Assembly (NCBI GenBank): GCA_027063505.1
Contig: JAMORO010000076.1
Location: 1 to 62,459, forward strand
DNA: 62,459 bases
Source of the DNA: Sulfurimonas sp.
GTDB lineage: Bacteria; Campylobacterota; Campylobacteria; Campylobacterales; Sulfurimonadaceae
Direction of reading: 5' to 3'
A model generated the notes under the pieces. It did no database searches and was not told the DNA's origin. It saw only the letters and a program-made list of their open reading frames with translations. Positions 11,329 through 29,255 of the stretch are shown here, one piece after another (the stretch's first letter is position 1; the number at the start of each line of letters is the position of its first letter). Position numbers and translations under genes: made by a program.

Positions 11329-11333
11329 TCCTG

Positions 11334-13085
11334 ATGTTTGAAGTAACAAATTTAAAACGAACAATTTTCTTTTTGGTTGCAGATGCAATATCTACATATA
11401 TTGCAGTTATTATCGCATTTTTATTTCGGTTTGATTTTTCTATACCTGAACAATATTTGGATGATATGCATAAGATGGTAGTTATTCTGATTCTTTTGAA
11501 AGTAGTACTCTTTTGTATTGGATCTGTTTATAAAATTTCATGGAGACATTTTAGTTTTAGAGATAGTGTTGTTGTTTTGTACCTTTCTATTGCAGTTACA
11601 ATGATTTTCACATTAATTGTATATGTTTTACGAGAAAACTTTATGAATGGGTTCCCTCGTTCAGTAATCCCTATTGAGTTTTTTATTTCACTTTTCATTA
11701 TTTTAAGTTCAAGAATGGTAAAAAGATTTTTTTTAGAATTATTCAATAAAAATGCTCTGGGAGTTCCAACTTTAGTAGTAGCGAAATCTCTTAAAGCAAA
11801 TGAAATAACTAGAAAAATGCTCTCCAATGATAAGTATTGGCCAGTGGCGATATTTGATAATCAATCAAGTTCAACAAAGATTAATGGAGTTTCAATTAAG
11901 ACAGTTGCTCAGCTTGAAAAATATCATCTTGGGTTACAGCAAGCTATAATTTCAGATGAGTTTGAATTAGAAGAGATCTATGAAGTTTTAAAAAATATTG
12001 GTGTACAAGAGTTTAAAAAGTATAACTCTCAAGGTGGGATAGAAGAGAGTTTTAAAGATATTACAGTTGAAGATTTACTTGCTCGCCACCCAAAAGACTT
12101 GGATAAAGAGAAAATAAAAACTTTTATCAAAAATAGAACTATCTTAGTTACAGGTGCAGGAGGTAGTATTGGAAGTGAAATCTGTAGGCAGTGTGAATTG
12201 TTTGAGGCTAAAAAACTGATACTACTTGATAATAGTGAGTATAATCTTTATACTATTACAGAAGAGATTAAAAGTATAGAGACTATTCCTGTGATGCAGA
12301 GTGTGGTTAATAGAGAATTATTAGATAAAACATTTGCACTTCATAAACCAGATATCGTTATACATGCAGCTGCTTATAAACATGTACCTTTAGTAGAGTC
12401 AAATATTTATGAGGGCATTATTAATAATATTATAGGTACAAAAAATGTTATAGATATATCTATACAACACAATGTAGAAAAGTTTGTAATGATTTCAACA
12501 GATAAAGCTGTTCGTCCCACAAATGTTATGGGTACCACAAAACGTATCTGTGAACTCTATGCACAAAATTCTAATGGCAAAGGAACAGATATTGTAGCTG
12601 TACGTTTTGGAAATGTACTTGGAAGTAGTGGAAGTGTGATACCTAAATTTAAAGCACAAATTCAAGCTGGAAAAAATATAACAGTTACTCATCCTGATAT
12701 AACGAGATATTTTATGCTAATACCTGAAGCATGTGAATTAGTACTTCAGGCAGGTGCTATTGGAACAGGTGGAGAGATATTTATACTTGATATGGGTGAA
12801 CCAATAAAGATAGTTGACTTAGCACAGAAAATGATAGATTTACATGGTAAAGAAAATATTCAAATAGAATTTACTGGACTTCGTCCCGGTGAAAAACTTT
12901 ATGAAGAGTTACTCATTGATGATACCGATAGTACTACTGATTATGAGTCAATAACAGTAGCAAGACCAACAGTATATAAAATAGAAAAGCTATCACAAGA
13001 TATCGAAGAGTTACTAATATGTGAAGATAAGCTTACAAAATTAAAAGAGATAGTTCCAGAATTTAACCATCAATTAAATAATTAA
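11334..13085 (+). CDS. Membrane nucleoside-diphosphate-sugar 4,6-dehydratase, PglF/WbpM/CapD type
   Basis: 583 residues, normal for PglF/WbpM. About four membrane segments (residues ~10-130) precede a CoA-binding-like domain and an extended SDR domain. The NAD(P) motif GAGGSIGSEI lies near residues 273-282; TDKAVRPTNVMGTTKR near 388-404 shows the family's replacement of the SDR catalytic Tyr by Met/Thr while keeping the Lys. Converts UDP-GlcNAc to UDP-4-keto-6-deoxy sugar, the substrate of the PglE-like aminotransferase. Last gene of the glycan cluster. A short all-AT inverted repeat at 13076-13093 overlaps its stop; it is a weak terminator at best. Confidence 0.88.
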   Translation: MFEVTNLKRTIFFLVADAISTYIAVIIAFLFRFDFSIPEQYLDDMHKMVVILILLKVVLFCIGSVYKISWRHFSFRDSVVVLYLSIAVTMIFTLIVYVLRENFMNGFPRSVIPIEFFISLFIILSSRMVKRFFLELFNKNALGVPTLVVAKSLKANEITRKMLSNDKYWPVAIFDNQSSSTKINGVSIKTVAQLEKYHLGLQQAIISDEFELEEIYEVLKNIGVQEFKKYNSQGGIEESFKDITVEDLLARHPKDLDKEKIKTFIKNRTILVTGAGGSIGSEICRQCELFEAKKLILLDNSEYNLYTITEEIKSIETIPVMQSVVNRELLDKTFALHKPDIVIHAAAYKHVPLVESNIYEGIINNIIGTKNVIDISIQHNVEKFVMISTDKAVRPTNVMGTTKRICELYAQNSNGKGTDIVAVRFGNVLGSSGSVIPKFKAQIQAGKNITVTHPDITRYFMLIPEACELVLQAGAIGTGGEIFILDMGEPIKIVDLAQKMIDLHGKENIQIEFTGLRPGEKLYEELLIDDTDSTTDYESITVARPTVYKIEKLSQDIEELLICEDKLTKLKEIVPEFNHQLNN

Positions 13086-13328: not shown

Positions 13329-13718
13329 ATGGAGCATATTAGTACTGCAAACCCGTACTTTGGTGTATTCGTTCTATTCGTAGTGACTTTTGGCGCGTTT
13401 ATCGCAACAACTGTAATTGCTCGTTTAGCGAGTCGTGCATTAGCACGTAAAGATAGTGAGAAGATTAAGCTCTCAGTTTATGAGTGTGGACCTGAAATCA
13501 CAAAACAACCAAATAGAGTTTCGCCTCAGTTTTATCTGTTCGCGTTACTTTTTTTACTGTTTGATGTAGAGATAGTGTTTATGTTCCCATGGGCAGTTGA
13601 TTTTAAGCTACTTGGTTGGTTTGGATTCGCTGAGATGTTAATGTTTATACTACTTCTTGCTATCGGTTTTGTATATGCATGGAAAAAAGGAGCGCTAGAA
13701 TGGCACAACATAAAGTAA
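13329..13718 (+). CDS. nuoA: NADH-quinone oxidoreductase subunit A
   Basis: 129 residues with three membrane segments. Family landmarks are visible: [12 protein letters not shown] (the conserved cysteine loop between TM1 and TM2), [27 protein letters not shown] with the buried acidic residues of TM2, and a third helix. It is part of the membrane arm near the quinone chamber. First gene of a 14-gene operon; the ribosome site AAAGGTAGGTT lies just upstream of ATG 13329. NuoB's start lies inside its last codons. Confidence 0.95.
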
Positions 13719-14209
13719 ATTATACACAAGATGGTGGACTTCCAGTTGCACTAACTTCTATCGACAAGATAGTAAACTGGGGACGTTCAAACTCACTTTG
13801 GGCATTGACTTATGGTCTTGCTTGTTGTGGTATTGAGATGATGGCATCTGGTGCTTCTCGTTATGACTTTGACCGTTATGGAACGATTTTTCGTGGTTCT
13901 CCACGTCAATCAGACTTGATGATAGTTGCAGGAACACTGACAAAGAAACATGCAGAGTTTATTAAACGTTTATATGATCAAATGACTGAGCCTCGATGGG
14001 TTATTTCTATGGGTTCATGTGCGAACACTGGTGGTATGTTTAACACATACGCTACTGTTCAAGGTGTTGATAGAATTATTCCTGTTGATCTGTATCTTCC
14101 TGGTTGTGCACCTCGCCCTGAAACACTTCAGTATGGTGTAATGTTGCTACAGAAAAAAATCCGTGCTAACAAAGCTGGAAATGCTCAAAAGCCAAAGAGG
14201 TTAATGTAA
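13700..14209 (+). CDS. nuoB: NADH-quinone oxidoreductase subunit B
   Basis: 169 residues from ATG 13700 (a GGAG site lies 9 bases upstream); an earlier in-frame ATG at 13679 lacks one and is rejected. Cysteine ligands of terminal cluster N2 are present: the CC pair in ACCGIEMM, the cysteine in GSCANTGG and that in PGCAPRPE. The protein passes electrons to quinone at the junction of the peripheral and membrane arms. The gene overlaps the nuoA end by 19 bases, implying coupled translation. Confidence 0.95.
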
Positions 14210-14210
14210 T

Positions 14211-15017
14211 ATGAGAAAGTATACTCCTAAAGATGATGTACAAGCAAAAGCTTACTATACTGATAGATACTATGTAGCACCTCAAGTTCCTAAACAAGAA
14301 GTAGAGAGTGATGAAGTATTTGCTGCAGATTTAGCTGCTATAAAAGCGAAGTTTGATGTAAAAGAAGCATTTATTCAAGTTGAACAGATGATAGTTTATA
14401 TCAATGCTTCAGATATCTATGGTGTTTTAGAGTTGATGAAAGATAAACTTACATATACACAACTTTCAGAACTTTCTGCAATTGATTGGCTTGCAAAAGA
14501 TAACACTTTTGAAATCTTTTACCAAATGCTTTCAATGACGAAACGTAAACGTATTCGTATCAAATTTTTCATTAATAATGGTGAAGCTGTTGATTCTGTT
14601 GAGAAGCTTTTTCGTTCCGCTGATTGGTCTGAGCGTGAGATGTTTGATATGTTTGGAATTGAGGCAAATGCTCATCCATTTATGAAACGTATTCTTATGC
14701 CTTATGATTGGCAAGGATATCCACTTCTTAAAACTTATCCATTAGAGGGTGATGAGTTTGCTGCATGGTATGAAGTAGATAAGATTTACGGAAAAGAAGC
14801 TCGTGAGGCAATTGGACCAGAAATTCGTGATACTGCACGTGTTGATCGTTATGACTCTGAGCGTTTTGCTCGTCTTGGATTTGAAGTACCTAAGGGGACT
14901 GAGATTACAGGTAATGAAGAGAGAAATGTAGAAGATTATCAAGAAGATGGTGGCGTTTTCCTCATCAAAAAATATAGTAAAAAAACATCAACAATCGTTG
15001 ATGATCCTCAAAGATAG
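14211..15017 (+). CDS. nuoC: NADH-quinone oxidoreductase subunit C
   Basis: 268 residues, separate from nuoD as in other Campylobacterota (fused NuoCD occurs in Enterobacteria). The conserved 30-kDa subunit segment SADWSEREMFDMFGI and MKRILMPYDWQGYPLLKTYPL are clear. There is an N-terminal extension of about 80 residues and a C-terminal tail relative to the core family domain. Structural role in the peripheral arm, beside NuoD and NuoB. Confidence 0.93.
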   Translation: MRKYTPKDDVQAKAYYTDRYYVAPQVPKQEVESDEVFAADLAAIKAKFDVKEAFIQVEQMIVYINASDIYGVLELMKDKLTYTQLSELSAIDWLAKDNTFEIFYQMLSMTKRKRIRIKFFINNGEAVDSVEKLFRSADWSEREMFDMFGIEANAHPFMKRILMPYDWQGYPLLKTYPLEGDEFAAWYEVDKIYGKEAREAIGPEIRDTARVDRYDSERFARLGFEVPKGTEITGNEERNVEDYQEDGGVFLIKKYSKKTSTIVDDPQR

Positions 15018-15029
15018 GGTGGTAAAAAT

Positions 15030-16271
15030 ATGGCACAGATAAAAAATAGATTAACACCGTTTTTTGAAAACATTACTTTTGATCGTGAAGATAACGAACT
15101 TATCCTGAACTTTGGTCCTCAACACCCATCAGCTCACGGACAGTTACGTTTAATGCTTCACCTACAACAAGAGCAGATAGTGAAATCACATCCAGATATT
15201 GGATATCTTCACCGTGGTATGGAGAAGATGGCTGAAAATATGATTTATAACGAGTTCATGCCTACTACTGATCGTATGGATTATATCGCTTCATCTTCAA
15301 ACAACTATGGTTTTGCTCTTGCAGTTGAAAAGCTTATAGATGTTGAAGTTCCTCGTCGTGCGAAAGTTATTCGTATGATGCTTTTAGAAATTAACCGTTT
15401 AATGTCTCACCTTTTCTGGCTTGCAACTACTGCACTAGATATTGGGGCTATGACAGTTTTCCTTTTTGCTTTCCGTGAGAGAGAGTACTTAATGGATATT
15501 ATAGAAGGTTATTGTGGTGCACGTTTAACACATGCAGCTATTCGTATTGGTGGTGTTCCTCTCGATATTCAAGATGACTTTTTACATCAATTAAGAGTTT
15601 TCTTAAATAAATTACCTCAAAATATTAAAGATTATGAGGATCTTTTAGATGCTAACCGTATCTGGCTTATGAGAATGGAAGAGGTTGGAGTAATTCCAAC
15701 TGAAATGGCACTCTCTTGGGGTTGTACAGGACCAATGCTTCGTGCATCTGGAGTAGCTTGGGATATTCGTAAAGAAGAGCCATATGAGTTATATGATGAA
15801 GTAGAGTTTAATGTTCCTTTCTCTGATAAGGGTGATAACTTTGCACGTTATAGAATCTATATGGAAGAGATGAGAGAGTCTGCTAAGATTCTTTATCAAA
15901 CAATAGATATGTATGAGAAGTGTGTAAAAAATGGTGAGACAGAATTAATGGCACATGCACCAAAATATATCTCTGCACCAAAGCTTGATTTAATGACACA
16001 AAACTACTCATTAATGCAACACTTTGTTCTTGTGACTCAAGGTATGAGACCACCAGTTGGTGAAGTATATGTAGCAACAGAATCACCAAAAGGTGAGCTT
16101 GGTTTCTTTATAAACTCTCAAGGTGGACCATATCCATATAGACTAAAACTGCGTGCTCCATCTTTCTGGCATACGGGTATTTTAACTGACCTTTTACCAG
16201 GTCACTACATTCCGGATGTTGTTTCTATTATTGGGACAACAAACATAGTATTTGGTGAGGTTGATAGATAA
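15030..16271 (+). CDS. nuoD: NADH-quinone oxidoreductase subunit D
   Basis: 413 residues. Opens into the quinone-site motif [14 protein letters not shown]; other family segments are [28 protein letters not shown] and [10 protein letters not shown], with the C-terminal [14 protein letters not shown]. Builds the quinone-binding cavity with NuoB. A good AGGGTGGT ribosome site precedes ATG 15030, and its stop overlaps the ATG of the following small gene (TAATG). Confidence 0.95.
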
Positions 16272-16498
16272 TGAAAAGATATGATTTACGTAAACTAAAA
16301 AATGAGTTTGAACCTCGTATGAAAGAGATTCTCAGCGAGTCCCACAAAGCGAACGAAACACTTATATTTCTTTTTGAAATAGGAGATTTTACTCCTATTC
16401 AAAGATCTGCTGACTTAGTAAAAGAGTCTGGTTATGAGTTATACAACTCATTAAAATTCAACGAAGTCGACTGGACTATCGTCGTTAAAAAAGATTAG
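16271..16498 (+). CDS. Small NuoE-like subunit of Campylobacterota complex I
   Basis: 75 residues, position-equivalent to the small protein found between nuoD and nuoG in Helicobacter (HP1264) and Campylobacter (Cj1575). It has no cysteines, so it cannot carry the [2Fe-2S] cluster N1a of true NuoE (about 165 residues). Sequence reads as a compact alpha/beta domain (helix at 8-30, ETLIFLFEIGDF, VDWTIVVKKD). Likely a structural adaptor for the substitute electron-input protein encoded next, 9 bases downstream. Function in detail unknown. Confidence 0.72.
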   Translation: MKRYDLRKLKNEFEPRMKEILSESHKANETLIFLFEIGDFTPIQRSADLVKESGYELYNSLKFNEVDWTIVVKKD

Positions 16499-16507
16499 GA
16501 TTTTATT

Positions 16508-18541
16508 TTGAGTAAAGTCTATTTTTCTACTTGGAAAGGTGAATCTATAAATAATATAGGTAAACCTGAAGAAGAGTGGCAAGAATCAGCATATAATCTA
16601 CCAGCACAATACGATGATCATCGTGAGTCTAAAGCCTTTATTGGTTGGGATGGTGTTGCACTTTTTAGTGAAGATGTAGATGTTATCCGTTTAGCGATGG
16701 AGTATGCAGCACAGTATCAAGAGTATTCAGAAGCATGTGGAAGATGTGCACCTGGTCGTTGGGGTGGTCGTATTCTTTATGATCAACTTGACAAAATTGC
16801 TCGTGGTGAGGGTGCTGTAGCTGATTTGGATCACTTAAAAGAGATCGGAAAAAGTATGCAAGTCACATCTAAGTGTGAGATTGGTAAAACTGTTCCAAAT
16901 CCTATTATTGACCTTATGACTCATTTTGAAGATACATTCATGGAGTGTATAAATGAGCAAAAAGAGTCAAAGCACTATAAAGAAAGCATTGGTTACATTG
17001 CAAAAATCACTTCTCCGTGTAGTGATGCTTGTCCTGCTGATGTTGATATTCCTGGTTATATCGAGGGTGTAAGAGATATGCGTTTTGATGACTCTCTTAT
17101 GGCAACTCGTGAGACTATGCCTCTTGCTCATGTTTGTGGTCGTGTTTGTCCACACCCATGTGAAGATGCGTGTCGTCGTACAAATCTTGATGAACCTATT
17201 AGTATTATGGCACTTAAACGCCTTGGTGCTGATTGGGAAACTGACCATGGGTATGACTTCTTTCAACCTATGGAGCCTAAGCCTAAAACTGGCAAAAAAG
17301 TAGCTGTAGTTGGGGCTGGTCCTGCTGGTCTTACGACTGCTTACTATTTAGCATCGGAAGGTGTTGAAGTAGATGTTTATGAAGCACTACCTGTTCTTGG
17401 TGGTGAAGTGACAGTTGGTGTTCCTGAGTACCGTATGCCATGGGACAAATATCTTCAAGATATTGAATGTGTAAGAGATATGGGTGTAAACTTCATACTT
17501 AATCACAATGTTTCAAAAGAGGATATGACTCGCTTTGAGAGTGAGTATGATGCAACAATGATTGCATCTGGTACTCGTATATCTAAAGCAGTTCGTTGTT
17601 CTAATGAACGTCCTGAAATTCAGGGTTACTGGGGTGCTATTGATTTTCTCGACTGGGTGAACCTTTATGAGAAGTTCGATATTAAAACGCCAGAATCAGT
17701 TCAGAAGCAACAGATGTTACCAACGGATCATGTAGATTTAACTGGTAAAACTCTTGCTTGTGTTGGTGGTGGATTTACATCTATGGATGTTGTTCGTTGT
17801 GCTATTCGTGCAGGTGCGAAGAGAGTAGTTATGATTTATCGTCGTGATGAGAAAACTATTATTCGTAATACTACTTATGAAGAGTATCATGAAGCAGTTG
17901 AAGAGGGTGTTGAGTTTATTTTCCATTCGGCTGTAAATGAGATTGTCGATGAAAATGATGTTCTAAAAGCTCTTGTAATTGATAAGTTTGAGTTAGTTCC
18001 TGATCCAAATGGTGGTCGTGCACAACTTGTTAAGATTGAGGGTGCGAGTGAGACAATTGATTTTGATTATCTTATTCCTGCTGTTTCTCAAAGTGCTGAT
18101 TTAGGATTTATTCCTGATGACTGGGATTTAGAGATGACTTCTTGGGCAACTCTTAAGACGAATGGTAAAGACTATATGACTTCTCGTAAAGGTGTTTTTG
18201 CATCTGGAGATTGTGAGTATGGTCCGATGACTATTGTAAATGCAGTGGGTCAGGCAAAACGTGGTGCTTCAGTTATAAGTCGTTACATAGAGAGTGGTGA
18301 GATAACTCTTACTGATGATGAGATTATGGAAGACCACCTTAAAAAACTGAAGGTTTACGATAAGAAAGAGAAAGTAACTGGATGGTTACCTGGTCTTCCT
18401 CGTGAACATAGTTCTGTTTTAGATACTGACTTTAGAAGATCAAACAACGAAGAGGTAAACTTAGGTTTTACTCAAGAGCAAGCACTAAGTGAAGCTGATC
18501 GTTGTATGCGTTGTTACTACATCGCTATGGTTCAGGCATAG
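16508..18541 (+). CDS. NuoF-replacing chimera: NuoF-like Fe-S domain fused to GltD-like FAD/NAD(P) oxidoreductase
   Basis: 677 residues from a TTG start with an AGGA site upstream. Residues ~50-145 resemble the C-terminal N3-cluster domain of NuoF (C77, C80, C123), but the third ligand position is G83 in CGRCAPG instead of Cys. Residues ~165-235 are a GltD-type double [4Fe-4S] domain (C171, C175, C210, C214, C218, C222). Residues ~263-620 hold an FAD motif GAGPAG (269-274) and a second nucleotide site GGGFTSMD with downstream YRRD, as in GltD-type NAD(P)H enzymes. The FMN/NADH domain of NuoF is absent. Inferred role: electron input to complex I, possibly from NAD(P)H or ferredoxin. A Cys pair (CMRC) ends the protein. 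Confidence 0.82.
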   Translation: MSKVYFSTWKGESINNIGKPEEEWQESAYNLPAQYDDHRESKAFIGWDGVALFSEDVDVIRLAMEYAAQYQEYSEACGRCAPGRWGGRILYDQLDKIARGEGAVADLDHLKEIGKSMQVTSKCEIGKTVPNPIIDLMTHFEDTFMECINEQKESKHYKESIGYIAKITSPCSDACPADVDIPGYIEGVRDMRFDDSLMATRETMPLAHVCGRVCPHPCEDACRRTNLDEPISIMALKRLGADWETDHGYDFFQPMEPKPKTGKKVAVVGAGPAGLTTAYYLASEGVEVDVYEALPVLGGEVTVGVPEYRMPWDKYLQDIECVRDMGVNFILNHNVSKEDMTRFESEYDATMIASGTRISKAVRCSNERPEIQGYWGAIDFLDWVNLYEKFDIKTPESVQKQQMLPTDHVDLTGKTLACVGGGFTSMDVVRCAIRAGAKRVVMIYRRDEKTIIRNTTYEEYHEAVEEGVEFIFHSAVNEIVDENDVLKALVIDKFELVPDPNGGRAQLVKIEGASETIDFDYLIPAVSQSADLGFIPDDWDLEMTSWATLKTNGKDYMTSRKGVFASGDCEYGPMTIVNAVGQAKRGASVISRYIESGEITLTDDEIMEDHLKKLKVYDKKEKVTGWLPGLPREHSSVLDTDFRRSNNEEVNLGFTQEQALSEADRCMRCYYIAMVQA

Positions 18542-18551
18542 GAGGGCTGTT

Positions 18552-20795
18552 ATGAGTAAAATTATAAATTTTAAGATTGATGGTCAAACTGTAGAAGCAC
18601 AAAAAGGCGAGACAATTCTTCAAGTTGCTCGCAAAAATGATATTTATATTCCTACTATGTGTTACATAGAAAAAACTTCTGCTTGTGCATCATGTCGTAT
18701 GTGTGTTGTCGAGGCTGAAGGGGTGGATGGTTTTGTACTAAGCTGTAATACACCTCCAACAGAAGGCATTGAAATTACTACAAATACTGTAGCACTTGAA
18801 GAGGAACGTGTAAACATCATGAAACTTTATGATGTAAATCATCCTTTAGAGTGTGGTGTTTGTGATAAGTCTGGTGAGTGTGACTTACAAAACAAAACAT
18901 TAGAGTTTAATGTAGGACAGCAAAACTTTTCAGCAAAAGATCAGCAACGTAAAATTGAGCATTGGGGATTGATTAATTATGATCCTTCACTCTGTATTAT
19001 GTGTGAGAAGTGTACACATGTTTGTAATGAAGTTATAGGTGATGATGCTATTGATGTGAAATTTGGTGGATATGGTTCAACTATCATCCCTAAAAATGCT
19101 GAAACACTTGATTGTACTTTCTGTGGTGAGTGTATCGCAGTTTGTCCAGTTGGAGCACTTGTAAGTTCTGACTTTCAGTACTCCGCAAATGCTTGGGAGC
19201 TAAGCCGCATTCCATCTACTTGTGCACACTGTTCTGCAGGATGTTCTTTAGAGTATGAGACAAGACATCATGGGATTAACACGGAGTCTACTATTCATAG
19301 AGTGAAGAATAACTTTGAATTCACTTCACTTTGTGGGGCAGGACGTTTTGGTTTTGATTTTCAAAATAAGTCTGTGAGTGATAATGCAGCATTTGATAAG
19401 GCGGTTGAAGCTCTTAAAAATGCAAATGCTATTCGTTTTTCATCTATCATTACAAATGAAGAGGCTCAAATCTTGCAACTTTTAAAAGAGAAGTTAGATG
19501 TGAAACTTTTTAATGAAGATGCTAGAAAATTTTCAGAGTTTATGAAAGCATATAGCTCAGTGAGTGGAAAGAAGCACCATAGTGGTTCATTAGATGCAAT
19601 TAAGCAAGCCGATGGAATCATTATAATTGGTTCTCGCATTGCAACTGATAATCCAGGTGTTCGTTATGCTATGACGACAGCAAGTCGCCATAATGGCGCG
19701 AAAATAGTTTATGCGCACCCTATTGAAGATGTTTTAATGCAAAACACCGTAACTCAGTTTATGAAGTATGAAGCTGGTAGTGAAGAGGGTGTTTTAGCAC
19801 TTTTAGCAAATACACTTCTTAAAAATGCTGATGTAGATGAAGCAACACGAGCTTTTTTAGATGATTTAGATTTAGGATATATTGAAGCTGAGAGTAATGT
19901 TGGTGAAGATGAACTTCTTAATATTACTAAAACATTTGCAAGAACTCAGAATCGAGTGCTTATAATTGGTAGTGATGTTTTTGCTCATGAGTCTGCACAA
20001 AACATAGCGAAACTTGCAGCAACTATTGAGAAGTACACAGACTTCTCTTTAGTTATTATTCCACAAGAGGTAAATACACTTGGTGTTTCACTTATATGTG
20101 ACTTAGACATTGATGAAAATATCAGCAATGTTGTGGGATATAATGCTGATGGAGATTTTATAATTAGTGCTTTAGAAGATGCTAATCTTTCTGTTGGAGC
20201 ACTGAACCAACAAGAGGGAACTGTTGTAAGTATTGATAACCGTCTATTACCACTTAATGTAGCTGTAGAGTTTAAGGGAACAAACTTAAATGAGATAGTA
20301 AAGAGAGTTGGTTTAGAGAAAGAGAATACAGTTGACTATACAGAAGTGTTACCAAGTTCATCAGGTTTTCAAGCTGTTAATTTTGACTCCTTAGAAAACT
20401 TCTTAGATAAGTACGGTAATGACACTCGTGGTTATATTTTAGATGAAGTAGAGACATTAGTAGATGGCACTTTAACTGCAGTAGCTGATTTAGCTGAGTT
20501 TAATGGAACTGTGATTTATCACTCAAATCCAGTGTTACAGTTTAACAGTTTCACAAACACTACAAAACAGTTAGAGCGTGATACAACACTTCGGGGTTCA
20601 GCACAATTTAGTGCAGCTGCAAAAATTGTAGATGGAGAGAAGATTGAGATAAGCTTCGGTACATCAACAATAACGAGAGTCTTTAAATTAGACCCTGAAC
20701 TAAAAGGAACAGTAGCATTAAATCCTACATTTGATATAAATGTAGCTGCTAATGAGTACAAGTTTCTTAAATCCAAAATAGTGAGAACAATATAA
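18552..20795 (+). CDS. nuoG: NADH-quinone oxidoreductase subunit G, copy 1
   Basis: 747 residues from ATG 18552, chosen because GGAGGG sits 6 bases before it; the in-frame ATG at 18489 lies inside the previous gene. N-terminal [2Fe-2S] ligands C37, C48, C51, C65; His-ligated [4Fe-4S] H97, C101, C104, C110; ferredoxin-type pairs C138-C148 and C178-C188; a further CAHCSAGC (214-221) plus LCGAGR supplies an N7-like cluster. The rest is a molybdopterin-oxidoreductase-like domain, presumably without cofactor. It relays electrons from the input module toward NuoI. Directly followed by a second, diverged nuoG. Confidence 0.92.
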   Translation: MSKIINFKIDGQTVEAQKGETILQVARKNDIYIPTMCYIEKTSACASCRMCVVEAEGVDGFVLSCNTPPTEGIEITTNTVALEEERVNIMKLYDVNHPLECGVCDKSGECDLQNKTLEFNVGQQNFSAKDQQRKIEHWGLINYDPSLCIMCEKCTHVCNEVIGDDAIDVKFGGYGSTIIPKNAETLDCTFCGECIAVCPVGALVSSDFQYSANAWELSRIPSTCAHCSAGCSLEYETRHHGINTESTIHRVKNNFEFTSLCGAGRFGFDFQNKSVSDNAAFDKAVEALKNANAIRFSSIITNEEAQILQLLKEKLDVKLFNEDARKFSEFMKAYSSVSGKKHHSGSLDAIKQADGIIIIGSRIATDNPGVRYAMTTASRHNGAKIVYAHPIEDVLMQNTVTQFMKYEAGSEEGVLALLANTLLKNADVDEATRAFLDDLDLGYIEAESNVGEDELLNITKTFARTQNRVLIIGSDVFAHESAQNIAKLAATIEKYTDFSLVIIPQEVNTLGVSLICDLDIDENISNVVGYNADGDFIISALEDANLSVGALNQQEGTVVSIDNRLLPLNVAVEFKGTNLNEIVKRVGLEKENTVDYTEVLPSSSGFQAVNFDSLENFLDKYGNDTRGYILDEVETLVDGTLTAVADLAEFNGTVIYHSNPVLQFNSFTNTTKQLERDTTLRGSAQFSAAAKIVDGEKIEISFGTSTITRVFKLDPELKGTVALNPTFDINVAANEYKFLKSKIVRTI

Positions 20796-23281
20796 TGAGT
20801 AATGTAGTCATCAATATTGATGGAAAAGAGATAGAGACACAAGAGGGTGAGTTTATATTAAATGCTGCTCGTGCTAACGATATCTTTATACCAGCAATCT
20901 GTTATTTGACAAGATGTAGTCCAACACTCGCTTGTCGTATTTGTCTTGTAGAAGCTGATGGTAAACAAGTGTATGCTTGTAATGCTAAAGCTAAAGACGG
21001 AATGAATATTACAACTTCAACGGAAAACATTGAGAAAGAGAAGCGTGCTATCATGGAAGTTTATGATGTAAATCATCCTCTTCAGTGTGGTGTATGTGAC
21101 CAGTCAGGTGAGTGTGAACTTCAAAACTATACACTTGAAATCGGTGTTGATTCACAAAACTATACGGTAAAAGATGTAGATAGAAGTTCTCACGATTGGG
21201 GTCATTTACACTACGATCCAGGTCTCTGTATAGTATGTGAGCGTTGTGTTACTGCTTGTAAAGATATGATTGGAGATAATTCACTTAAAACTATCGCTCG
21301 TGGTGCTGATGCACTAGAAGCAGAGTTTAAAGAGAGTATGCCTAAAGATGCTTATGCAATGTGGAATAAACTCAATAAGTCAGTTATCGGTCTTACAAAT
21401 GGAACAGATGTTCTTGATTGTACTTCATGTGGTGAGTGTGCTGCTGTTTGTCCAGTTGGAGCATTAGTTGATACTCAGTTCATGTATAAATCAAATGCTT
21501 GGGAGCTTACTCAGATTCCTGCAACTTGTTCTCACTGTTCTGCTGGATGTCAAATATCTTACGATGTAAAACATACAAGTATAGAGAATCCAGAAGATAA
21601 AATCTACCGTGTTATGAATGAGTGGAACTATGTATCTCTTTGTGGTGCTGGTCGTTATGGTTTTGACTATGAAAATCGTGATGTTGTAAAAGATGAAGTT
21701 GCTTTTTCTAATGCAATTGAAGCTTTCAAAAAGGCCGACACTATTAATTTTACTTCTACTATTACGAATGAAGAGGCTTATATCTTAGAGAAACTCAAAG
21801 ATAAATTTGGTTATAAACTTGTGAATGAAGAAGCAAGATCTTTCCAAACTTTCTTAAAAGATTACTCTGAAGTAAGTGGAACTACTCTTTATGGTAGTGA
21901 CTTAAAAGAGTCTATGAACTCTAACTTTATTGTAACTGTTGGCACAGCTATTAAAACTGATAATCCAAATGCGAGATATTCACTCAATAACTCACTTACA
22001 GTAAATAAGGGCGCGGCACTCTATTTTCACCCAGTAGCAGATCCTGTTGTTGACGGGATGAGTAAAAATATTTTAAGTATTAACCATAAACCTCTTCAAG
22101 AAGAGACAGCTTTATACTTAATTCTTGACCTTTTTGCAGATAAGTCTAAACTACCAACTGATATAGTTGAATATTTAGCATCTTTTCACTCTATGAAAAC
22201 AGTTACAGTTACGGAAACTATTAAAGAGAAAGTAGTTACTGTTGTTAAAGAGATGAAAGTTAATGAAGAGACTGGTGAAGAGGAAGAAGTTGAAGTAGAA
22301 AAATCTAAAATGGCTCCTAAAAAAGTAAGTAAAGAAGTTGAAGTAGATGACAACAGACTTATCTCTATGCTTGGAATGAAAGATGATTTTAATGAAGTTC
22401 TTGCAAAGTTTATGAAGAAAAAAGATAGCTTCTCTCTTATCGTTGGACCAGATCTTTACAATCATCCTAACTCTAAAAACTTAGCTCGTTTAGTAGCTTT
22501 AGTTGAAAAATACTCTAAATTTGAGTTAGTTATGATTCCAACTCTTACAAATACACTTGGTGTTGCTCTTATAAATGAGCTCTCATGTGAAGCTGGAAGT
22601 AACTCTATAGGTTATAACACAAAAGGTGACTTTGTTTTAAGTGCCTTAGGTGATGGAGATCTCGATATGCCTGCAATTAATCAGCAAGAGGGAACTCTTA
22701 CAAGTATAAATAAGCGAGTTAATCCTACAAATGCAGCACTTAGTTATGGTGGTTACACACTTAACGATATCGCTAATGCTTTAGGCTTAAGCGTTGAAAA
22801 TACGATTGATTACACGCTAGAGCTTGGAAATGTAACTGGATTCGAAGCTATTGCATTTGATGATCTTCCTGATTATTATACAAATGCAGGAGAAGAGATT
22901 CGTGGTTTTGGCCTTACATCTACTTCAGTTGCAACAACAGATGATAGTGTAGAGAAGATAGATGAAGCTCTTATGTTAGAAAATGATATAATCTACTTAG
23001 CAAACCCTGTAAGACAGTTTACAGATTTTACAAAAGTAACTACAAATCTTGATGAAGAGAGTGGTATATACATGAGTGCTGAAGCTTTAGAGAAATCTGA
23101 GTACAGTGCTGGTGAGAGTGTAAAAGTAAAAACTGCTAATGGTGAACTTACTGCAAAAATTATTAGTGATAATAAAATAGCAGGTAATATTGTTGTTTTA
23201 CCAACATTTGATTCTAAATTAAACTCAGAGGCTTTAGTAGACGGTTACCGTTTTGCAACAGCTTCGATACAAAAGGTGTAA
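20795..23281 (+). CDS. nuoG: NADH-quinone oxidoreductase subunit G, copy 2 (larger paralogue)
   Basis: 828 residues, overlapping the first nuoG stop by one base. All cluster motifs are kept: the N-terminal [2Fe-2S] set ending in LACRICLVE, HPLQCGVCDQSGEC, CIVCERCVTAC, CTSCGECAAVCP and CSHCSAGC with LCGAGR. Compared with copy 1 it has an extra ~25 residues between the ferredoxin pairs and a highly charged insertion at about 466-520, rich in Lys, Glu and Val. The two proteins are clearly homologous across their length but far from identical, so the duplication is old. Whether both sit in one complex or alternate is unknown. Confidence 0.9.
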   Translation: MSNVVINIDGKEIETQEGEFILNAARANDIFIPAICYLTRCSPTLACRICLVEADGKQVYACNAKAKDGMNITTSTENIEKEKRAIMEVYDVNHPLQCGVCDQSGECELQNYTLEIGVDSQNYTVKDVDRSSHDWGHLHYDPGLCIVCERCVTACKDMIGDNSLKTIARGADALEAEFKESMPKDAYAMWNKLNKSVIGLTNGTDVLDCTSCGECAAVCPVGALVDTQFMYKSNAWELTQIPATCSHCSAGCQISYDVKHTSIENPEDKIYRVMNEWNYVSLCGAGRYGFDYENRDVVKDEVAFSNAIEAFKKADTINFTSTITNEEAYILEKLKDKFGYKLVNEEARSFQTFLKDYSEVSGTTLYGSDLKESMNSNFIVTVGTAIKTDNPNARYSLNNSLTVNKGAALYFHPVADPVVDGMSKNILSINHKPLQEETALYLILDLFADKSKLPTDIVEYLASFHSMKTVTVTETIKEKVVTVVKEMKVNEETGEEEEVEVEKSKMAPKKVSKEVEVDDNRLISMLGMKDDFNEVLAKFMKKKDSFSLIVGPDLYNHPNSKNLARLVALVEKYSKFELVMIPTLTNTLGVALINELSCEAGSNSIGYNTKGDFVLSALGDGDLDMPAINQQEGTLTSINKRVNPTNAALSYGGYTLNDIANALGLSVENTIDYTLELGNVTGFEAIAFDDLPDYYTNAGEEIRGFGLTSTSVATTDDSVEKIDEALMLENDIIYLANPVRQFTDFTKVTTNLDEESGIYMSAEALEKSEYSAGESVKVKTANGELTAKIISDNKIAGNIVVLPTFDSKLNSEALVDGYRFATASIQKV

Positions 23282-23284
23282 TAT

Positions 23285-24268
23285 ATGGATAACGCATATT
23301 TAATTGAAACGGTTATAAAGGTCGTTGTGATTTTACTTATATTCTCTGCACTCGCAGGAATTGGTACATACTTTGAGCGTAAGGTACTTGCATTTATGCA
23401 ACGTCGTCTTGGGCCAATGAATGTAGGTCCTTTTGGACTACTACAAGTTGGAGCTGATGGTATTAAACTCTTTACAAAAGAGGATATTATTCCTACAAAT
23501 GTTGTAGCACCAATCTTTAAAATTGCACCAGTAATTACTGCAGCGACTGCATTTATGGCAGCAGCTGCAATTCCATTTTTACCAGCATTTACAGTTTTTG
23601 GATATGAAGTTCATCCAATAGTTGCAGATATTAACATCGGTATATTATATGTTCTTGGTGTAATGGCTGTTGGTCTTTTTGGTCCACTACTTGGTGGTAT
23701 GGCATCTGCAAATAAGTTTTCACTTCTTTCAGCTGCTCGTGCTGCTGCAGTATTTATATCGTATGAAGTTGTAACAGGTCTCTCAATTTTAGCTCCAATT
23801 ATGATGGTTGGTTCACTTTCACTGATTGACTTTAACAACTACCAAATTGAGAATGGTTGGATTGTATGGTCTCAACCAGTAGCATTTATACTTTTTTGGA
23901 TTGCTGCATTTGCTGAAACGGGTCGTACACCTTTCCACCTTATTGCAAATGATCATGAAATAATTGATGGATTTGGAACAGAGTACTCTGGTATGAGATG
24001 GGGTCTTTTCTTCATCGGAGAGTATGCAAATATGTTCTTTATATCATTTGTTATTCCTATCATTTTTCTTGGTGGTTTTGGTGATGGTTCTGTTTTAGGT
24101 GCTCTAGCACTTCTTGGTAAGATGGCATTCTTCTTCTTTTTCTTCTTATGGACAAGAGCTGCATGGCCAGATGTTAGACCAGATCAACTTATGTGGTTAT
24201 GTTGGAAAGTACTTATGCCAGTAGCAGTAATAAACGTTGTTATCACTGGTTTTGTGATGATGTTTTAA
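23285..24268 (+). CDS. nuoH: NADH-quinone oxidoreductase subunit H
   Basis: 327 residues with about eight membrane helices. Diagnostic segments: FERKVLAFMQRRLGPMNVGPFGLLQ after TM1, the AFAETGRTPFHL loop (usually ETNRAPFDL) and the C-terminal FFFLWTRAAWPDVRPDQLMWLCWK. It forms part of the quinone tunnel and the link between electron transfer and proton pumping. Three bases after nuoG copy 2. Confidence 0.95.
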   Translation: MDNAYLIETVIKVVVILLIFSALAGIGTYFERKVLAFMQRRLGPMNVGPFGLLQVGADGIKLFTKEDIIPTNVVAPIFKIAPVITAATAFMAAAAIPFLPAFTVFGYEVHPIVADINIGILYVLGVMAVGLFGPLLGGMASANKFSLLSAARAAAVFISYEVVTGLSILAPIMMVGSLSLIDFNNYQIENGWIVWSQPVAFILFWIAAFAETGRTPFHLIANDHEIIDGFGTEYSGMRWGLFFIGEYANMFFISFVIPIIFLGGFGDGSVLGALALLGKMAFFFFFFLWTRAAWPDVRPDQLMWLCWKVLMPVAVINVVITGFVMMF

Positions 24269-24277
24269 GGGATGATG

Positions 24278-24889
24278 ATGGAACAGTTTAATAATAGAAA
24301 TGTAGCCGAAGGTGGTTACTACTTAGTAGACATTGAAGACTATCCAACTGATGGTTGGGGTAAGTTTAAGCGTGTAGTGAAGAGAAGTTTTAAAGGTGAA
24401 CTATTTGTTGGTCTTTGGGTTGTACTTCGTGAGATGATTCGGTTTGATATTCACACTATATCTTACCCAGAAGAGAAGATGCCTATTGGACCACGTTATC
24501 GTGCTATTCATGAGATGAAGCGTCTTTGGGAATCTGATACTGAACGTTGTATCGGTTGTGGACTTTGTGAGAAGATCTGTATCTCTGACTGTATTCGTAT
24601 GGATACTAAAATAGATGAAGAGTCTCGTAAAGAGGTGAGTGAATATACTATTAACCTCGGTCGCTGTATTTTCTGTGGATACTGTGCTGAAGTTTGTCCA
24701 GAACTTGCAATCACACACGGTGGTGAGTATGAAAATGCATCAGATCAACGTGAGCATTTTGTTGAGTATGCAGATATGCTTACACCACTTGATACTATGA
24801 AAGCAAATGCTCAAAAAGAGTTTGACGGTTTTGGTGCGATTACACCACATGAAGATGAGCGTGTTAAGAAAACACCTCTATCATATTAA
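24278..24889 (+). CDS. nuoI: NADH-quinone oxidoreductase subunit I
   Basis: About 203 residues. Three consecutive ATG codons occur at 24272, 24275 and 24278; the last is best spaced (6 bases) from the AAGGG site and is chosen. Two [4Fe-4S] ferredoxin motifs, CIGCGLCEKIC and CIFCGYCAEVCP, ligate clusters N6a and N6b. An amphipathic N-terminus anchors it beside NuoH. It carries electrons from NuoG to NuoB. Confidence 0.94.
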   Translation: MEQFNNRNVAEGGYYLVDIEDYPTDGWGKFKRVVKRSFKGELFVGLWVVLREMIRFDIHTISYPEEKMPIGPRYRAIHEMKRLWESDTERCIGCGLCEKICISDCIRMDTKIDEESRKEVSEYTINLGRCIFCGYCAEVCPELAITHGGEYENASDQREHFVEYADMLTPLDTMKANAQKEFDGFGAITPHEDERVKKTPLSY

Positions 24890-24901
24890 GGAGATTGGAT
24901 T

Positions 24902-25474
24902 ATGTTTGAAGCGGTAGCGTTTTACCTGTTTGCATTTTTAACAATTGCGATGTTTTACATAACTGTGACTACATCACAAGCGTTATATGCACTAACTGCA
25001 TTAGCAGCGGGGATGATTTTTATATCAGCATTTTTCTTTATTCTAGGTGCTGACTTTTTAGGTGCGGTACAGATTATCGTTTATACAGGTGCTGTTATGG
25101 CACTCTATGCTTTTGGTATGATGTTTTTTGATACAACTCGTGAAGTTAAAGAGAAGCAGGGTAACAAATTTATTGTTGTTGGTCTTGCAACTTTAGCTGC
25201 TGTAATGGTTGTAGCAATATTCGTAGCCCCAATCGTATCAACTAATATGACAGCTTTTTACCCTATGGTAGAGGGTGCTGGAAATACTCAAGAGGTTGGT
25301 TTAGTACTTTTTACTAAATATCTTATTCCTTTTGAAGTTGCAGCAGTTATGTTACTTGTTGCAATGGTAGCTGGAATTGTACTAGCGGGTAAAAAAATGG
25401 ATCTTTCTCTAACTCTTATGAGTGCTGAGCAAGCTAAAGATATAGATGATAAAGATAAGAAGGTGCTTTCATGA
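24902..25474 (+). CDS. nuoJ: NADH-quinone oxidoreductase subunit J
   Basis: 190 residues, five membrane helices expected. The third helix has the family element FLGAVQIIVYTGAVMALYAFGMMF, including the pi-bulge region important for proton transfer. An AAGGAG ribosome site precedes ATG 24902. The stop overlaps the start of nuoK. Confidence 0.93.
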   Translation: MFEAVAFYLFAFLTIAMFYITVTTSQALYALTALAAGMIFISAFFFILGADFLGAVQIIVYTGAVMALYAFGMMFFDTTREVKEKQGNKFIVVGLATLAAVMVVAIFVAPIVSTNMTAFYPMVEGAGNTQEVGLVLFTKYLIPFEVAAVMLLVAMVAGIVLAGKKMDLSLTLMSAEQAKDIDDKDKKVLS

Positions 25475-25779
25475 TGGAAATAGGTTTAAACCACTATCTG
25501 GTTCTTTCTACAATTCTATTTGCTATTGGTTTAGTAGGTATTATGAGAAGAAAGAATCTTCTGTTACTCTTTTTTGCAACAGAAATTTTATTAAACGCTG
25601 TTAATATCGCATTTGCTGCGATTTCACACTACTATGGTGACTTAACGGGTCAGATGTTTGCATTTTTTGTAATTGCAATCGCGGCTTCTGAGTTAGCTGT
25701 AGGACTTGGTCTTTTAATTGTATGGTATAAACGCCATGGCAATATTGATCTTGACACTATGACAAGTATGAGAGGATAA
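25471..25779 (+). CDS. nuoK: NADH-quinone oxidoreductase subunit K
   Basis: 102 residues, three membrane helices, MrpC-like. The two buried glutamates used in proton transfer are seen in FFATEILLNAVN and AIAASELAVGLGLLI. ATG 25471 overlaps the nuoJ stop; the adjacent ATG 25474 is an equally possible start. Confidence 0.94.
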   Translation: MMEIGLNHYLVLSTILFAIGLVGIMRRKNLLLLFFATEILLNAVNIAFAAISHYYGDLTGQMFAFFVIAIAASELAVGLGLLIVWYKRHGNIDLDTMTSMRG

Positions 25780-25781
25780 TT

Positions 25782-27701
25782 ATGGAATTATATTTATACA
25801 TTGCACTTTTTGCACCTCTAGTGAGTTCTATGTTCTCTGCACTATTTACGAACACACCAAAGAAGCAGTTTGTAGGGATTGTTGCAAGTCTTTTAATCTT
25901 TACAGCATTTGGAAGTAGTACTATACTCCTTTCTCACATCTTAGGTGGTGGTGATATTGTTCATGTTGAGATGATGACATGGATGGCTACTGGTAACCTT
26001 TACATTCCTTTTGGATTTGTTGTTGATCAAGTTTCTGTAACTATGATGATGGTTGTAACTTTAGTTTCTACTATCGTGCATATCTACTCTATAGGTTATA
26101 TGGATCATGATAAAGGATTTAATAGATTCTTTGCATGGCTTTCTGCTTTCGTGTTCTCTATGATGATTCTTGTTATGAGTGATAACTTTGCTGGTCTTTT
26201 CATTGGTTGGGAAGGTGTTGGTCTCTGTTCATGGGGTCTAATTGGTTTCTGGTTTCATAAAGAGGTTGCTACTTGGGCAGCGAATGAAGCATTTATTATG
26301 AATCGTATTGCTGACCTTGCTATGCTTATCGGTATCTTTTTAGTTTATTGGAATACAGGTTCACTGCAGTATGATATTGCATTCCCTGCAATGGCTACTC
26401 TAGACCCTTCTACTTTAACTTGGATGGGAATCTTTCTTTTCATTGGTGCTATGGGTAAGTCGGCTCAGTTTCCACTCCATACATGGCTTGCGGATGCGAT
26501 GGAAGGTCCTACACCAGTTTCTGCTCTTATTCATGCAGCGACGATGGTTACAGCAGGTGTTTATTTAGTTATTCGTTCAAACGAGCTTTATGACTTAATT
26601 CCTAATGTAGGTCTATTTATAGCATCTCTTGGTGCTTTTGTTGCCCTTTTTGCAGCTTCAATGGCACTTGTAAACCGTGATATGAAACGTATCATTGCAT
26701 ACTCGACTCTTTCACAACTAGGTTATATGTTTGTGGCAGCAGGTCTTGGTGCTTACTGGGTTGCACTATTTCACCTTATGGCTCACGCATTCTTTAAAGC
26801 ACTTCTTTTCCTTGGTGCTGGTAATGTTATGCATGCTATGCATGATGAACTTGATCCATTTAAAATGGGTGGACTATATAAGAAAATGAAGTGGACAGCA
26901 ATTATGATGACTATCGCATCAATTGCTCTTGCTGGTATCTTTCCTCTTGCTGGTTTCTTCTCTAAAGATGCTATTTTAGAAGCGGCATTTGTTGAGCATC
27001 ACTTTATTATCTATTCTGTGATTTTATTTACTGCGGGTCTTACAGCATTCTATTCATTTAGACTTGTTGCTATGATTTTCCATGGTGAAGAGCGTTATAA
27101 ACTTTTTGGTATTGATCCACATGAAGCATATAAGTTTATGCTTGTTGGTATGAGTCCTCTTTTAATTCTAGCTATTATTGCTGGTGCATTAAAAGGAACA
27201 TACTTCGAGATGATTACAGGACTTCTTCCAAATACTGAGTATCACTTACATAGTGAACTTACATATTGGATTATGACTATTGGTACTCAAGTTTTTGTTG
27301 CACTTGCTATTATGTATGCATATAAAAAATATGCATTTTCTCCAGTTTCAGTTCCAGATGGAACAAGTAAGATGGAAAATAGCTTTATGTATAAACTTTT
27401 ACTTAACCAATACTATATTCCGTATGCTTATGAAGAGTATATAGTAAAACCATATAATGAGCTTTCAGCTGCTTTATGGAAAGTTGATCAAAATGTTGTT
27501 GATGCGAGTGTTGATGGAATAGCAAATATATTCTACAAAACTGGTGAAAACACAAGACATATGCAGAGTGGAAATCTTTCTACTATGTTAAAATGGATGG
27601 TAGCTGGTACTGTTGCACTACTATCATTAGCTGTTGTTTTTGGACTTGCAGCAAGATACTCTGGTGAGATTAGAACAATCTTATCAGGTTTAGGAGTTTA
27701 G
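25782..27701 (+). CDS. nuoL: NADH-quinone oxidoreductase subunit L
   Basis: 639 residues, the largest antiporter-like proton-pumping subunit, with about 14 core helices plus a C-terminal extension containing the lateral helix. Key residues are seen in GWEGVGLCSW (TM5 Glu) and in LIHAATMVTAGVYL, followed by STLSQLGYMF. Two bases after nuoK. Confidence 0.95.
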   Translation: MELYLYIALFAPLVSSMFSALFTNTPKKQFVGIVASLLIFTAFGSSTILLSHILGGGDIVHVEMMTWMATGNLYIPFGFVVDQVSVTMMMVVTLVSTIVHIYSIGYMDHDKGFNRFFAWLSAFVFSMMILVMSDNFAGLFIGWEGVGLCSWGLIGFWFHKEVATWAANEAFIMNRIADLAMLIGIFLVYWNTGSLQYDIAFPAMATLDPSTLTWMGIFLFIGAMGKSAQFPLHTWLADAMEGPTPVSALIHAATMVTAGVYLVIRSNELYDLIPNVGLFIASLGAFVALFAASMALVNRDMKRIIAYSTLSQLGYMFVAAGLGAYWVALFHLMAHAFFKALLFLGAGNVMHAMHDELDPFKMGGLYKKMKWTAIMMTIASIALAGIFPLAGFFSKDAILEAAFVEHHFIIYSVILFTAGLTAFYSFRLVAMIFHGEERYKLFGIDPHEAYKFMLVGMSPLLILAIIAGALKGTYFEMITGLLPNTEYHLHSELTYWIMTIGTQVFVALAIMYAYKKYAFSPVSVPDGTSKMENSFMYKLLLNQYYIPYAYEEYIVKPYNELSAALWKVDQNVVDASVDGIANIFYKTGENTRHMQSGNLSTMLKWMVAGTVALLSLAVVFGLAARYSGEIRTILSGLGV

Positions 27702-27704
27702 TAT

Positions 27705-29255
27705 ATGTTAGATCATATTTTAAGTATTTTAATTTTCTTCCCAGCACTTGCCGGTGTTATGGGATTTATGATAAATAAAGAGAGCATGAGAGCTTACGGT
27801 GTATCTGTAGCATTCATTGAGTTTGCACTCTCTTTATGGTTATGGTTCGCATTTGATAATAATATATCTGGTATGCAGTTTATGGAACACCTTCCACTTA
27901 TTCCTTCATTTGGAATTAACTATATTTTAGGTGTTGATGGTATATCTCTGTTTATCATCATCTTAGCAGCATTCTTTACTATGATAGGTATCGCTTCACT
28001 TACTGATACTAAAGATGTAAAAAACATGATTATTACACTTCTGTTTTTACAGATGACTATGATAGGTGTTTTTTCTGCACTTGATGGAATCGTATTTTAT
28101 GTATTTTGGGAACTCTCTCTCGTACCAATGCTTTATATCATTGGTGCATGGGGTGGACCTTTACGTATCTATGCATCTGTTAAGTTCTTCTTATATACAT
28201 TTGCGGGATCTCTTGTTATGCTTGTTGGTATGCTTTTTATGGCTTACTTCTTTTACCAGGCAACAGGTGTATGGTCATTCGCTATTCTTGATTGGTACAG
28301 ACTTATCCTTCCTGAATCTTTTCAGTTATGGTTATTTGCAGCGTTCTTTGTTGGTTTTGCCATCAAAGTACCTATGTTCCCATTTCATACATGGTTACCG
28401 TATGCACACGGTCAAGCACCAACTATTGGTTCGGTTATACTAGCAGCGATTTTACTAAAAATGGGTACATATGCATTTATCCGTTTTTCACTGCCACTAT
28501 TTCCAGATGCTTCGGTATACTTCATGTACCCAATCGCAGTTATATCAATTATTATGATTATTTACACTGCAATGGTTGCTTATGCACAAAAAGATGTTAA
28601 ACAAGTTGTTGCTTACTCTTCAGTATCACATATGGGTGTTATCATTCTTGGTACATTTGCTCTTAATGTTGAAGGTATTTCAGGTTCAGTTTTCTTAATG
28701 ATTGCTCACGGTGTTGTCTCAGGAGCACTCTTCTTACTTGTTGGTGTTATCTATGATAGACGTCACACGAAGCTTATGTCTGAGTTTGGTGGTTTAGCAC
28801 ATGTGATGCCTAAGTATGCAACTATCTTTGGTATTATGATGATGGCTTCAGTAGGTATGCCACTTACTATTAACTTTGTTGGTGAGTTCCTTTCACTTCT
28901 TGGTTTTTATCAGCAGTCTCACATCTTAACACTATTAGCAGGTATTGCTATTGTTGTTGGTGCTATTTATATGCTTAGTGCTTACAAAAAAATGTTCTTT
29001 GGTGAAGTTACAAAAGAGGAAAATAGAAATCTTCCAGATGTAAATAAACGTGAACTTATCGCTTTAATACCTTTAGTGTTAATTACAATTTGGTTAGGTA
29101 TTTATCCTAAACCAGTTCTTGGTCCGATTAATAACTCTGTTGAGTCAGTTGTACAGTTAATGCACAATAAAGCTACATCAGAAGAAGCTAAAATGAGAAT
29201 ACCAAATGTAAGTGGTGTTGTTATTAGCAAAACTGCAACGAAGGAGGCTCACTAA
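27705..29255 (+). CDS. nuoM: NADH-quinone oxidoreductase subunit M
   Basis: 516 residues, 14-helix antiporter-like subunit. FYVFWELSLVPMLYIIG holds the conserved TM5 glutamate; FPFHTWLPYAHGQAP and AYSSVSHMGVIILG mark the proton-channel helices. Its last base is the first base of nuoN. Confidence 0.95.
   Translation: MLDHILSILIFFPALAGVMGFMINKESMRAYGVSVAFIEFALSLWLWFAFDNNISGMQFMEHLPLIPSFGINYILGVDGISLFIIILAAFFTMIGIASLTDTKDVKNMIITLLFLQMTMIGVFSALDGIVFYVFWELSLVPMLYIIGAWGGPLRIYASVKFFLYTFAGSLVMLVGMLFMAYFFYQATGVWSFAILDWYRLILPESFQLWLFAAFFVGFAIKVPMFPFHTWLPYAHGQAPTIGSVILAAILLKMGTYAFIRFSLPLFPDASVYFMYPIAVISIIMIIYTAMVAYAQKDVKQVVAYSSVSHMGVIILGTFALNVEGISGSVFLMIAHGVVSGALFLLVGVIYDRRHTKLMSEFGGLAHVMPKYATIFGIMMMASVGMPLTINFVGEFLSLLGFYQQSHILTLLAGIAIVVGAIYMLSAYKKMFFGEVTKEENRNLPDVNKRELIALIPLVLITIWLGIYPKPVLGPINNSVESVVQLMHNKATSEEAKMRIPNVSGVVISKTATKEAH

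Follow-up and report, generated by a model that had tools for sequence, protein, structure and literature searches.

Respiratory complex I is usually taken to contain one NuoG subunit, with seven on-path iron-sulfur clusters in an invariable chain. Why, then, does one complex I operon of a Sulfurimonas species encode two NuoG proteins? The operon lies in a stretch of 62,459 nucleotides (hereafter the window), contig C76 of a genome of 2.10 Mb in 86 contigs. Its initial annotation recorded two complete, diverged nuoG genes in tandem and offered two explanations: either two forms of complex I exist with different electron donors, or one complex holds two NuoG-like proteins in series. Beyond that annotation, we found a fifth [4Fe-4S] site in both copies, an upstream NuoF(N3)-GltD fusion and a second, standard nuo operon.

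Organization of the nuo operon

As judged from open reading frames and Pfam, the genes follow the order nuoA-B-C-D, NuoX, NuoF(N3)-GltD fusion, NuoG1, NuoG2, nuoH-N, all on the forward strand. The genes nuoA, nuoB, nuoC and nuoD (13329-16271), whose order is identical in all related operons, form the start of an epsilon-type complex I operon; surface-polysaccharide genes (aminotransferase, sugar transferase, nucleotide-sugar dehydratase; 9605-13085) are located directly 5′ of it. The adjacent NuoX (16271-16498), a short 'NuoE' replacement of 75 amino acids (PF16514, E 8e-38), occupies a position that we take to be the Cj1575/HP1264 slot. The presence of a PF16514 protein between nuoD and the nuoG genes is a trait of the epsilon-type complex I, and PF16514 was detected in 240 of 299 genomes of the order and in 0 of 14 control genomes. 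Downstream lie the fusion (16508-18541; 677 amino acids, TTG start), assigned by Pfam, PDB sequence matches and ligand conservation, followed by NuoG1 (18552-20795; 747 amino acids) and NuoG2 (20795-23281; 828 amino acids). The operon is completed by nuoH, I, J, K, L, M and N (23285-30772), which encode the membrane arm and NuoI and were assigned by their reading frames and cross-locus identity.

Sequence, clusters and fold of the two NuoG proteins

Both nuoG reading frames are open and overlap by 1 nucleotide, in line with the tandem of complete genes described initially. The Campylobacterota NuoG model NF006305 (cut-off 591 bits) recognizes NuoG1 with 890 bits and NuoG2 with 1133 bits; both stay under the cut-off of the general model TIGR01973 (231.7 and 200.4 vs 470). 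The strong divergence claimed for the pair holds for the sequence, with 46% identity over 423 amino acids of the Fe-S half and 35% over 293 amino acids of the C-terminal half. It does not hold for the length, since the difference between 747 and 828 amino acids is mild and results mostly from two inserts in NuoG2, residues 465-517 and 173-195. The latter insert (window 21311-21379), located between the N4 and the extra-cluster motifs and comprising a K[DE]SMPKDAY-like core, is conserved in NuoG2 and single NuoG proteins and occurs in no NuoG1, and it is a candidate docking loop.

In NuoG1, the ligands are C37/48/51/65 for N1b, H97/C101/104/110 for N5, C148/151/154/198 for N4, C158/188/191/194 for the extra [4Fe-4S] cluster and C224/227/231/261 for N7, and all five sets likewise occur in NuoG2. 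Thus, the observation that each copy keeps every Fe-S ligand motif, including N7, was correct. When ligand conservation was scored on alignment columns, the N1b, N4 and N5 ligands were complete in all 95 NuoG1 and in all 87 NuoG2 or single NuoG sequences. By contrast, N7 ligands are lost piecemeal in 27 NuoG2 and 3 NuoG1, and the extra cluster is lost in 10 NuoG1 and 2 NuoG2. Because N1b, N4 and N5 are intact everywhere, while N7 and the extra cluster have disappeared in several lineages, both proteins look like working wires. Moreover, the extra cluster is credible since its four cysteines vanish together in the 10 NuoG1 proteins that retain the four N4 cysteines.

The AF2 model of NuoG1 (pLDDT 89.3) matches the NuoG/FDH fold, with a Z score of 25.4 to E. 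coli NuoG (7p61_G) over 708 amino acids, and its C-terminal half is predicted to adopt a degenerate fold of the molybdopterin enzyme type. The initial annotation had pointed to relaxed selection on one copy as a sign against its explanations; we looked for this and found median dN/dS values in Sulfurimonas of 0.134 for NuoG1 and 0.112 for NuoG2 (0.092 and 0.058 for the respective Fe-S halves). Purifying selection acts on both proteins. Positions that are fixed in both NuoG1 and NuoG2 but carry different residues are concentrated next to the N1b ligands (4/9 vs 2/98, p 3e-4, post hoc), as expected at this electron entry site if the two proteins take electrons from different partners. In one genome (G167; L102:10680-11609 and the next reading frame), NuoG2 is split into 309 and 537 amino acids, which reflects a frameshift or a sequencing error.

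The NuoF(N3)-GltD fusion

Residues 74-145 of the fusion correspond to the C-terminal Fe-S domain of NuoF (PF10589), and residues 164-583 to the GltD-like 4Fe-4S/FAD/NAD(P)H domains (PF14691, PF07992). By Pfam, the FMN/NADH domain PF01512 is absent from the fusion as well as from the whole operon, and the only copy in the genome belongs to the standard nuo operon on contig C15. The N3 motif (residues 77-83) reads CGxCxPG, so that one of the four ligands is missing; its third cysteine is replaced by glycine in 67 of 67 fusions. Because of this universal loss, electrons from GltD may reach NuoG1 without passing the N3-like site, or a different ligand may be used there. The six cysteines of the GltD clusters, a C-terminal CxxC (C666, C669) and Glu124 are invariant among the relatives of the fusion.

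All 67 fusions likewise contain a YRR motif. In the GltD/Nfn family, this motif goes with NADPH, and family membership suggests that NADPH rather than NADH is the substrate of the fusion. In sequence comparison with the PDB, the GltD part matched best to the Stn/NfnABC structures 8oh5 and 9bov. Longer fusions (724 to about 960 amino acids), with the additional sequence between the N3 and the GltD domains, were observed in some Helicobacteraceae (L122, L115; genomes G212, G286 and G294).

Distribution and history of the NuoG pair

The order fusion-NuoG1-NuoG2 was found in all 55 operons that could be read fully, with gaps of -38 to +6 nucleotides. In a set of 50 operons, 27 contain both the fusion and NuoG1 and 23 contain neither, without a single discordant case. 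Across the class, 217 of the 249 genomes encode relatives of NuoG1; in the phylum sample, 81 of the 298 genomes encode the NuoF-GltD fusion. The pair recurs in many genomes, which rules out an assembly artefact; a recent duplication is ruled out by the identity of 46%, and a pseudogene by purifying selection.

The phylogeny of both copies, a check proposed with the initial annotation, was inferred from the Fe-S halves, with the paralogs of operon L108 assigned by gene order. All single NuoG proteins group with NuoG2 in one clade (SH-aLRT 100), which excludes NuoG1. Therefore, NuoG2 is seen as the standard NuoG of the group and NuoG1 as an old paralog. Since the standard NuoG encoded elsewhere in this genome was unusable as an outgroup (branch length 8), the tree does not place the duplication in time against its root. 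On this phylogeny, NuoG2 and the single NuoG of Campylobacter/Helicobacter-type operons are orthologs, and by its distribution the NuoG pair is an old, conserved feature of the Campylobacterales. Sulfurimonas and most of its free-living relatives appear to carry the pair together with an NADPH-type input protein for complex I.

NuoY is a reduced NuoG1 by sequence and predicted fold

Almost every operon that lacks the fusion has a reading frame of 215-350 amino acids between nuoX and nuoG; in the Helicobacteraceae operon L124, no reading frame was found in this slot. By its operon position, the short protein is Cj1574c/HP1265 ('NuoF-like', 'NuoY'). Reviews describe this slot as replacing nuoF (PMC4178425), the designation 'nuoXY' is used in PMC6682613, and Cj1574c of C. 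jejuni has been reported to mediate the transfer from flavodoxin to complex I (PMC4178425). NuoY has neither a Pfam family nor an NCBIfam model of its own. Profile-profile comparison with hhalign matched it to NuoG1 with E 1.3e-59 and to NuoG2 with E 3e-22. It keeps residues ~350-515 and ~637-747 of NuoG1 and lacks the Fe-S domain, and is thus cluster-free. For its predicted structure (pLDDT 92, pTM 0.90), Z scores reach 22 against molybdo-enzymes, and the match to E. coli NuoG (7nz1_G) has a Z score of 16.7 across 240 residues. As judged from the profiles and the predicted fold, NuoY is the C-terminal domain of NuoG1, a stripped-down remnant of this protein. The cluster-free form is absent from the operon in the window, where full-length NuoG1 stands in its place.

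The number of origins of NuoY is uncertain, since the C-terminal tree gives two, with a single origin not rejected (p-AU 0.39), as opposed to at least 6 switches of the fusion/NuoG1 state on the tree of the 50 operons. The input module may have been exchanged horizontally. In operon L114 (4211-5266), NuoX and NuoY are fused into one protein of 351 amino acids, which suggests that NuoX and NuoY touch. The Sulfurovaceae-like genome G208 harbors two NuoY-type loci (contigs C9 and C59); its congener G096 contains a full NuoG1.

A proposed model with two NuoG proteins in series

The patterns described above, comprising gene anatomy, homology, co-occurrence, ligand conservation, selection and the origin of NuoY, were read from sequence. 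We consider it likely that NuoG1 and NuoG2 are co-subunits of one complex I, arranged in series, which would probably act as a reversible NADPH:menaquinone oxidoreductase. Here, NuoX and the NuoF(N3)-GltD flavoprotein would replace the usual NuoE/NuoF NADH module, NuoG1 would serve as an extra piece of wire that ties the GltD-type module to NuoG2, and NuoG2 would take the normal place of NuoG and pass the electrons on to NuoI. The proposed path would thus lead from NADPH via the FAD and the two 4Fe-4S clusters of the GltD domain, and possibly the N3-like site, to N1b/N4/N5 of NuoG1, and onward via N1b/N4/N5 of NuoG2, NuoI and NuoB to menaquinone, with N7 and the extra 4Fe-4S cluster off-path. 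Likewise, in StnC the GltD NADPH domain and the NuoG clusters constitute a linear path, from which the N7-side clusters (the two of the FdhF-like domain) are set apart (PMC10482914). In autotrophs, the enzyme would often run in reverse and generate NADPH. Lineages in which flavodoxin or ferredoxin feeds the complex would have shed the fusion along with the Fe-S half of NuoG1, and would have kept the C-terminal domain of NuoG1 as the subunit NuoY.

A single complex is favored by the fixed gene order, the translational overlap and the obligatory pairing of the fusion with NuoG1, as well as by the universal through-path clusters in both copies and the retention of NuoY where the input module has been lost. 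The serial arrangement appears to be the simplest, since co-loss links NuoG1 to the GltD module, and the retention of NuoY beside NuoG2 links the C-terminal domain of NuoG1 to the remaining complex. A branched arrangement, in which both NuoG proteins would contact the Q-module, is conceivable as well. We infer the physical stoichiometry, the serial order, NADPH as the substrate and the direction of electron flow. Hence, the second of the two explanations offered initially, two NuoG proteins in series in one complex, is the one that the sequence evidence favors.

Alternatively, one complex could use both NuoG proteins as a branch point, with the GltD module feeding NuoG1 and ferredoxin or flavodoxin feeding NuoG2 directly, so that NADPH and low-potential electrons are merged or split, possibly by bifurcation at the GltD FAD. 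NuoG2 alone suffices in the NuoY lineages, for which flavodoxin or ferredoxin has been reported as the donor, autotrophs using the rTCA cycle need reduced ferredoxin as well as NADPH, and a GltD-type FAD does bifurcate in NfnB (PMC10482914). However, we identified no ferredoxin-docking feature, and StnC shows that a NuoG-bound GltD FAD need not bifurcate (PMC10482914). We therefore regard this branched variant as unlikely, though it fares best among the alternatives.

The other initial explanation, by which two alternative forms of complex I exist, we consider improbable; the operon would then yield one form in which NuoG1 works with the GltD fusion and another in which NuoG2 serves a different donor. 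With N1b, N4 and N5 kept in both copies, either could be a complete wire, and S. multivorans expresses two types of complex I. Yet the two nuoG genes overlap and share one operon with only one nuoX, and the reduced NuoG1 keeps its C-terminal domain as a subunit beside NuoG2. Moreover, the genome harbors a separate, complete standard nuo operon with its own NuoG (genome G000, contig C15:15001-35000; L156), encoding a fused NuoCD of 553 amino acids, a canonical NuoF of 407 amino acids and a short NuoG of 457 amino acids (about 26% identical). Of 61 Sulfurimonadaceae, just 21 were found to encode a canonical NuoF, as was 1 of the 8 Sulfurimonas sampled, which makes the NuoG pair independent of it; among the 40 family members without canonical NuoF, those with operons read keep the pair. 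A purely structural or assembly role for NuoG1, which would then hold the GltD module in place without conducting electrons, is highly improbable, as all 12 through-path ligands are invariant in 95 of 95 NuoG1 and the off-path clusters decay, even though the C-terminal domain of NuoG1 persists, cluster-free, as NuoY.

Returning to the serial arrangement, we see an even chance that it extends to a class-wide variant of complex I with two NuoG proteins behind a GltD-type NADPH module, which would rank among the longest respiratory Fe-S wires (about 11 on-path clusters vs 7 in the canonical enzyme), and in which Cj1574/HP1265, as the cluster-free vestige of NuoG1, would have become a docking subunit for flavodoxin. 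If the native complex indeed holds two serial NuoG proteins fed via a GltD flavoprotein, the N-module would be open to exchange and extension with the pump retained, and chemolithoautotrophic Campylobacterota would possess a direct route from menaquinol to NADPH. The suggested origin of NuoY also renders the feeding of complex I by flavodoxin testable, as docking on the old NuoG1 scaffold beside N1b of NuoG2.

Comparison with known systems

In the literature searched, we found no description of paired NuoG proteins or of the origin of NuoY, although older papers may mention them. The Sulfurimonas enzyme is a variant of complex I rather than a Stn transhydrogenase, since the membrane arm is present and the FMN-binding NuoF is absent. 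With the Stn/NfnABC transhydrogenases (8oh5, 9bov), it shares the GltD-type NADPH/FAD domain with two 4Fe-4S clusters and the NuoG-type clusters. There, GltD is wired to the NuoG clusters by insertion into NuoG (StnC), whereas in Sulfurimonas both modules are present and co-inherited on separate chains, with GltD fused behind the N3 domain of NuoF. The transhydrogenases further differ in being soluble, with a NuoF-like FMN subunit, a single NuoG unit and no quinone arm.

The epsilon-type complex I of C. jejuni and H. pylori (NuoX-NuoY, Cj1575c-Cj1574c), for which flavodoxin has been reported as a donor in C. jejuni (PMC4178425), resembles that of Sulfurimonas in operon order, the PF16514 NuoX, a NuoG orthologous to NuoG2 and the membrane arm. 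In contrast, it comprises neither the NuoF-GltD fusion nor the Fe-S half of NuoG1, and electrons enter from flavodoxin; its NuoY would be a piece of the NuoG1 that is seen whole in Sulfurimonas. The standard complex I of the same genome is likewise encoded by a complete nuo operon, but with a canonical NuoF, a single short NuoG and no GltD fusion. Finally, the canonical complex I of E. coli, Thermus and Aquifex (NuoG, 7q5y) shares the NuoG fold, the N1b/N4/N5/N7 ligands and NuoA-D and H-N, whereas the Sulfurimonas operon has no NuoE, no FMN/NADH-binding NuoF and an N3 site that lacks one of the four cysteines, and it encodes two NuoG proteins instead of one, both with the extra 4Fe-4S site.
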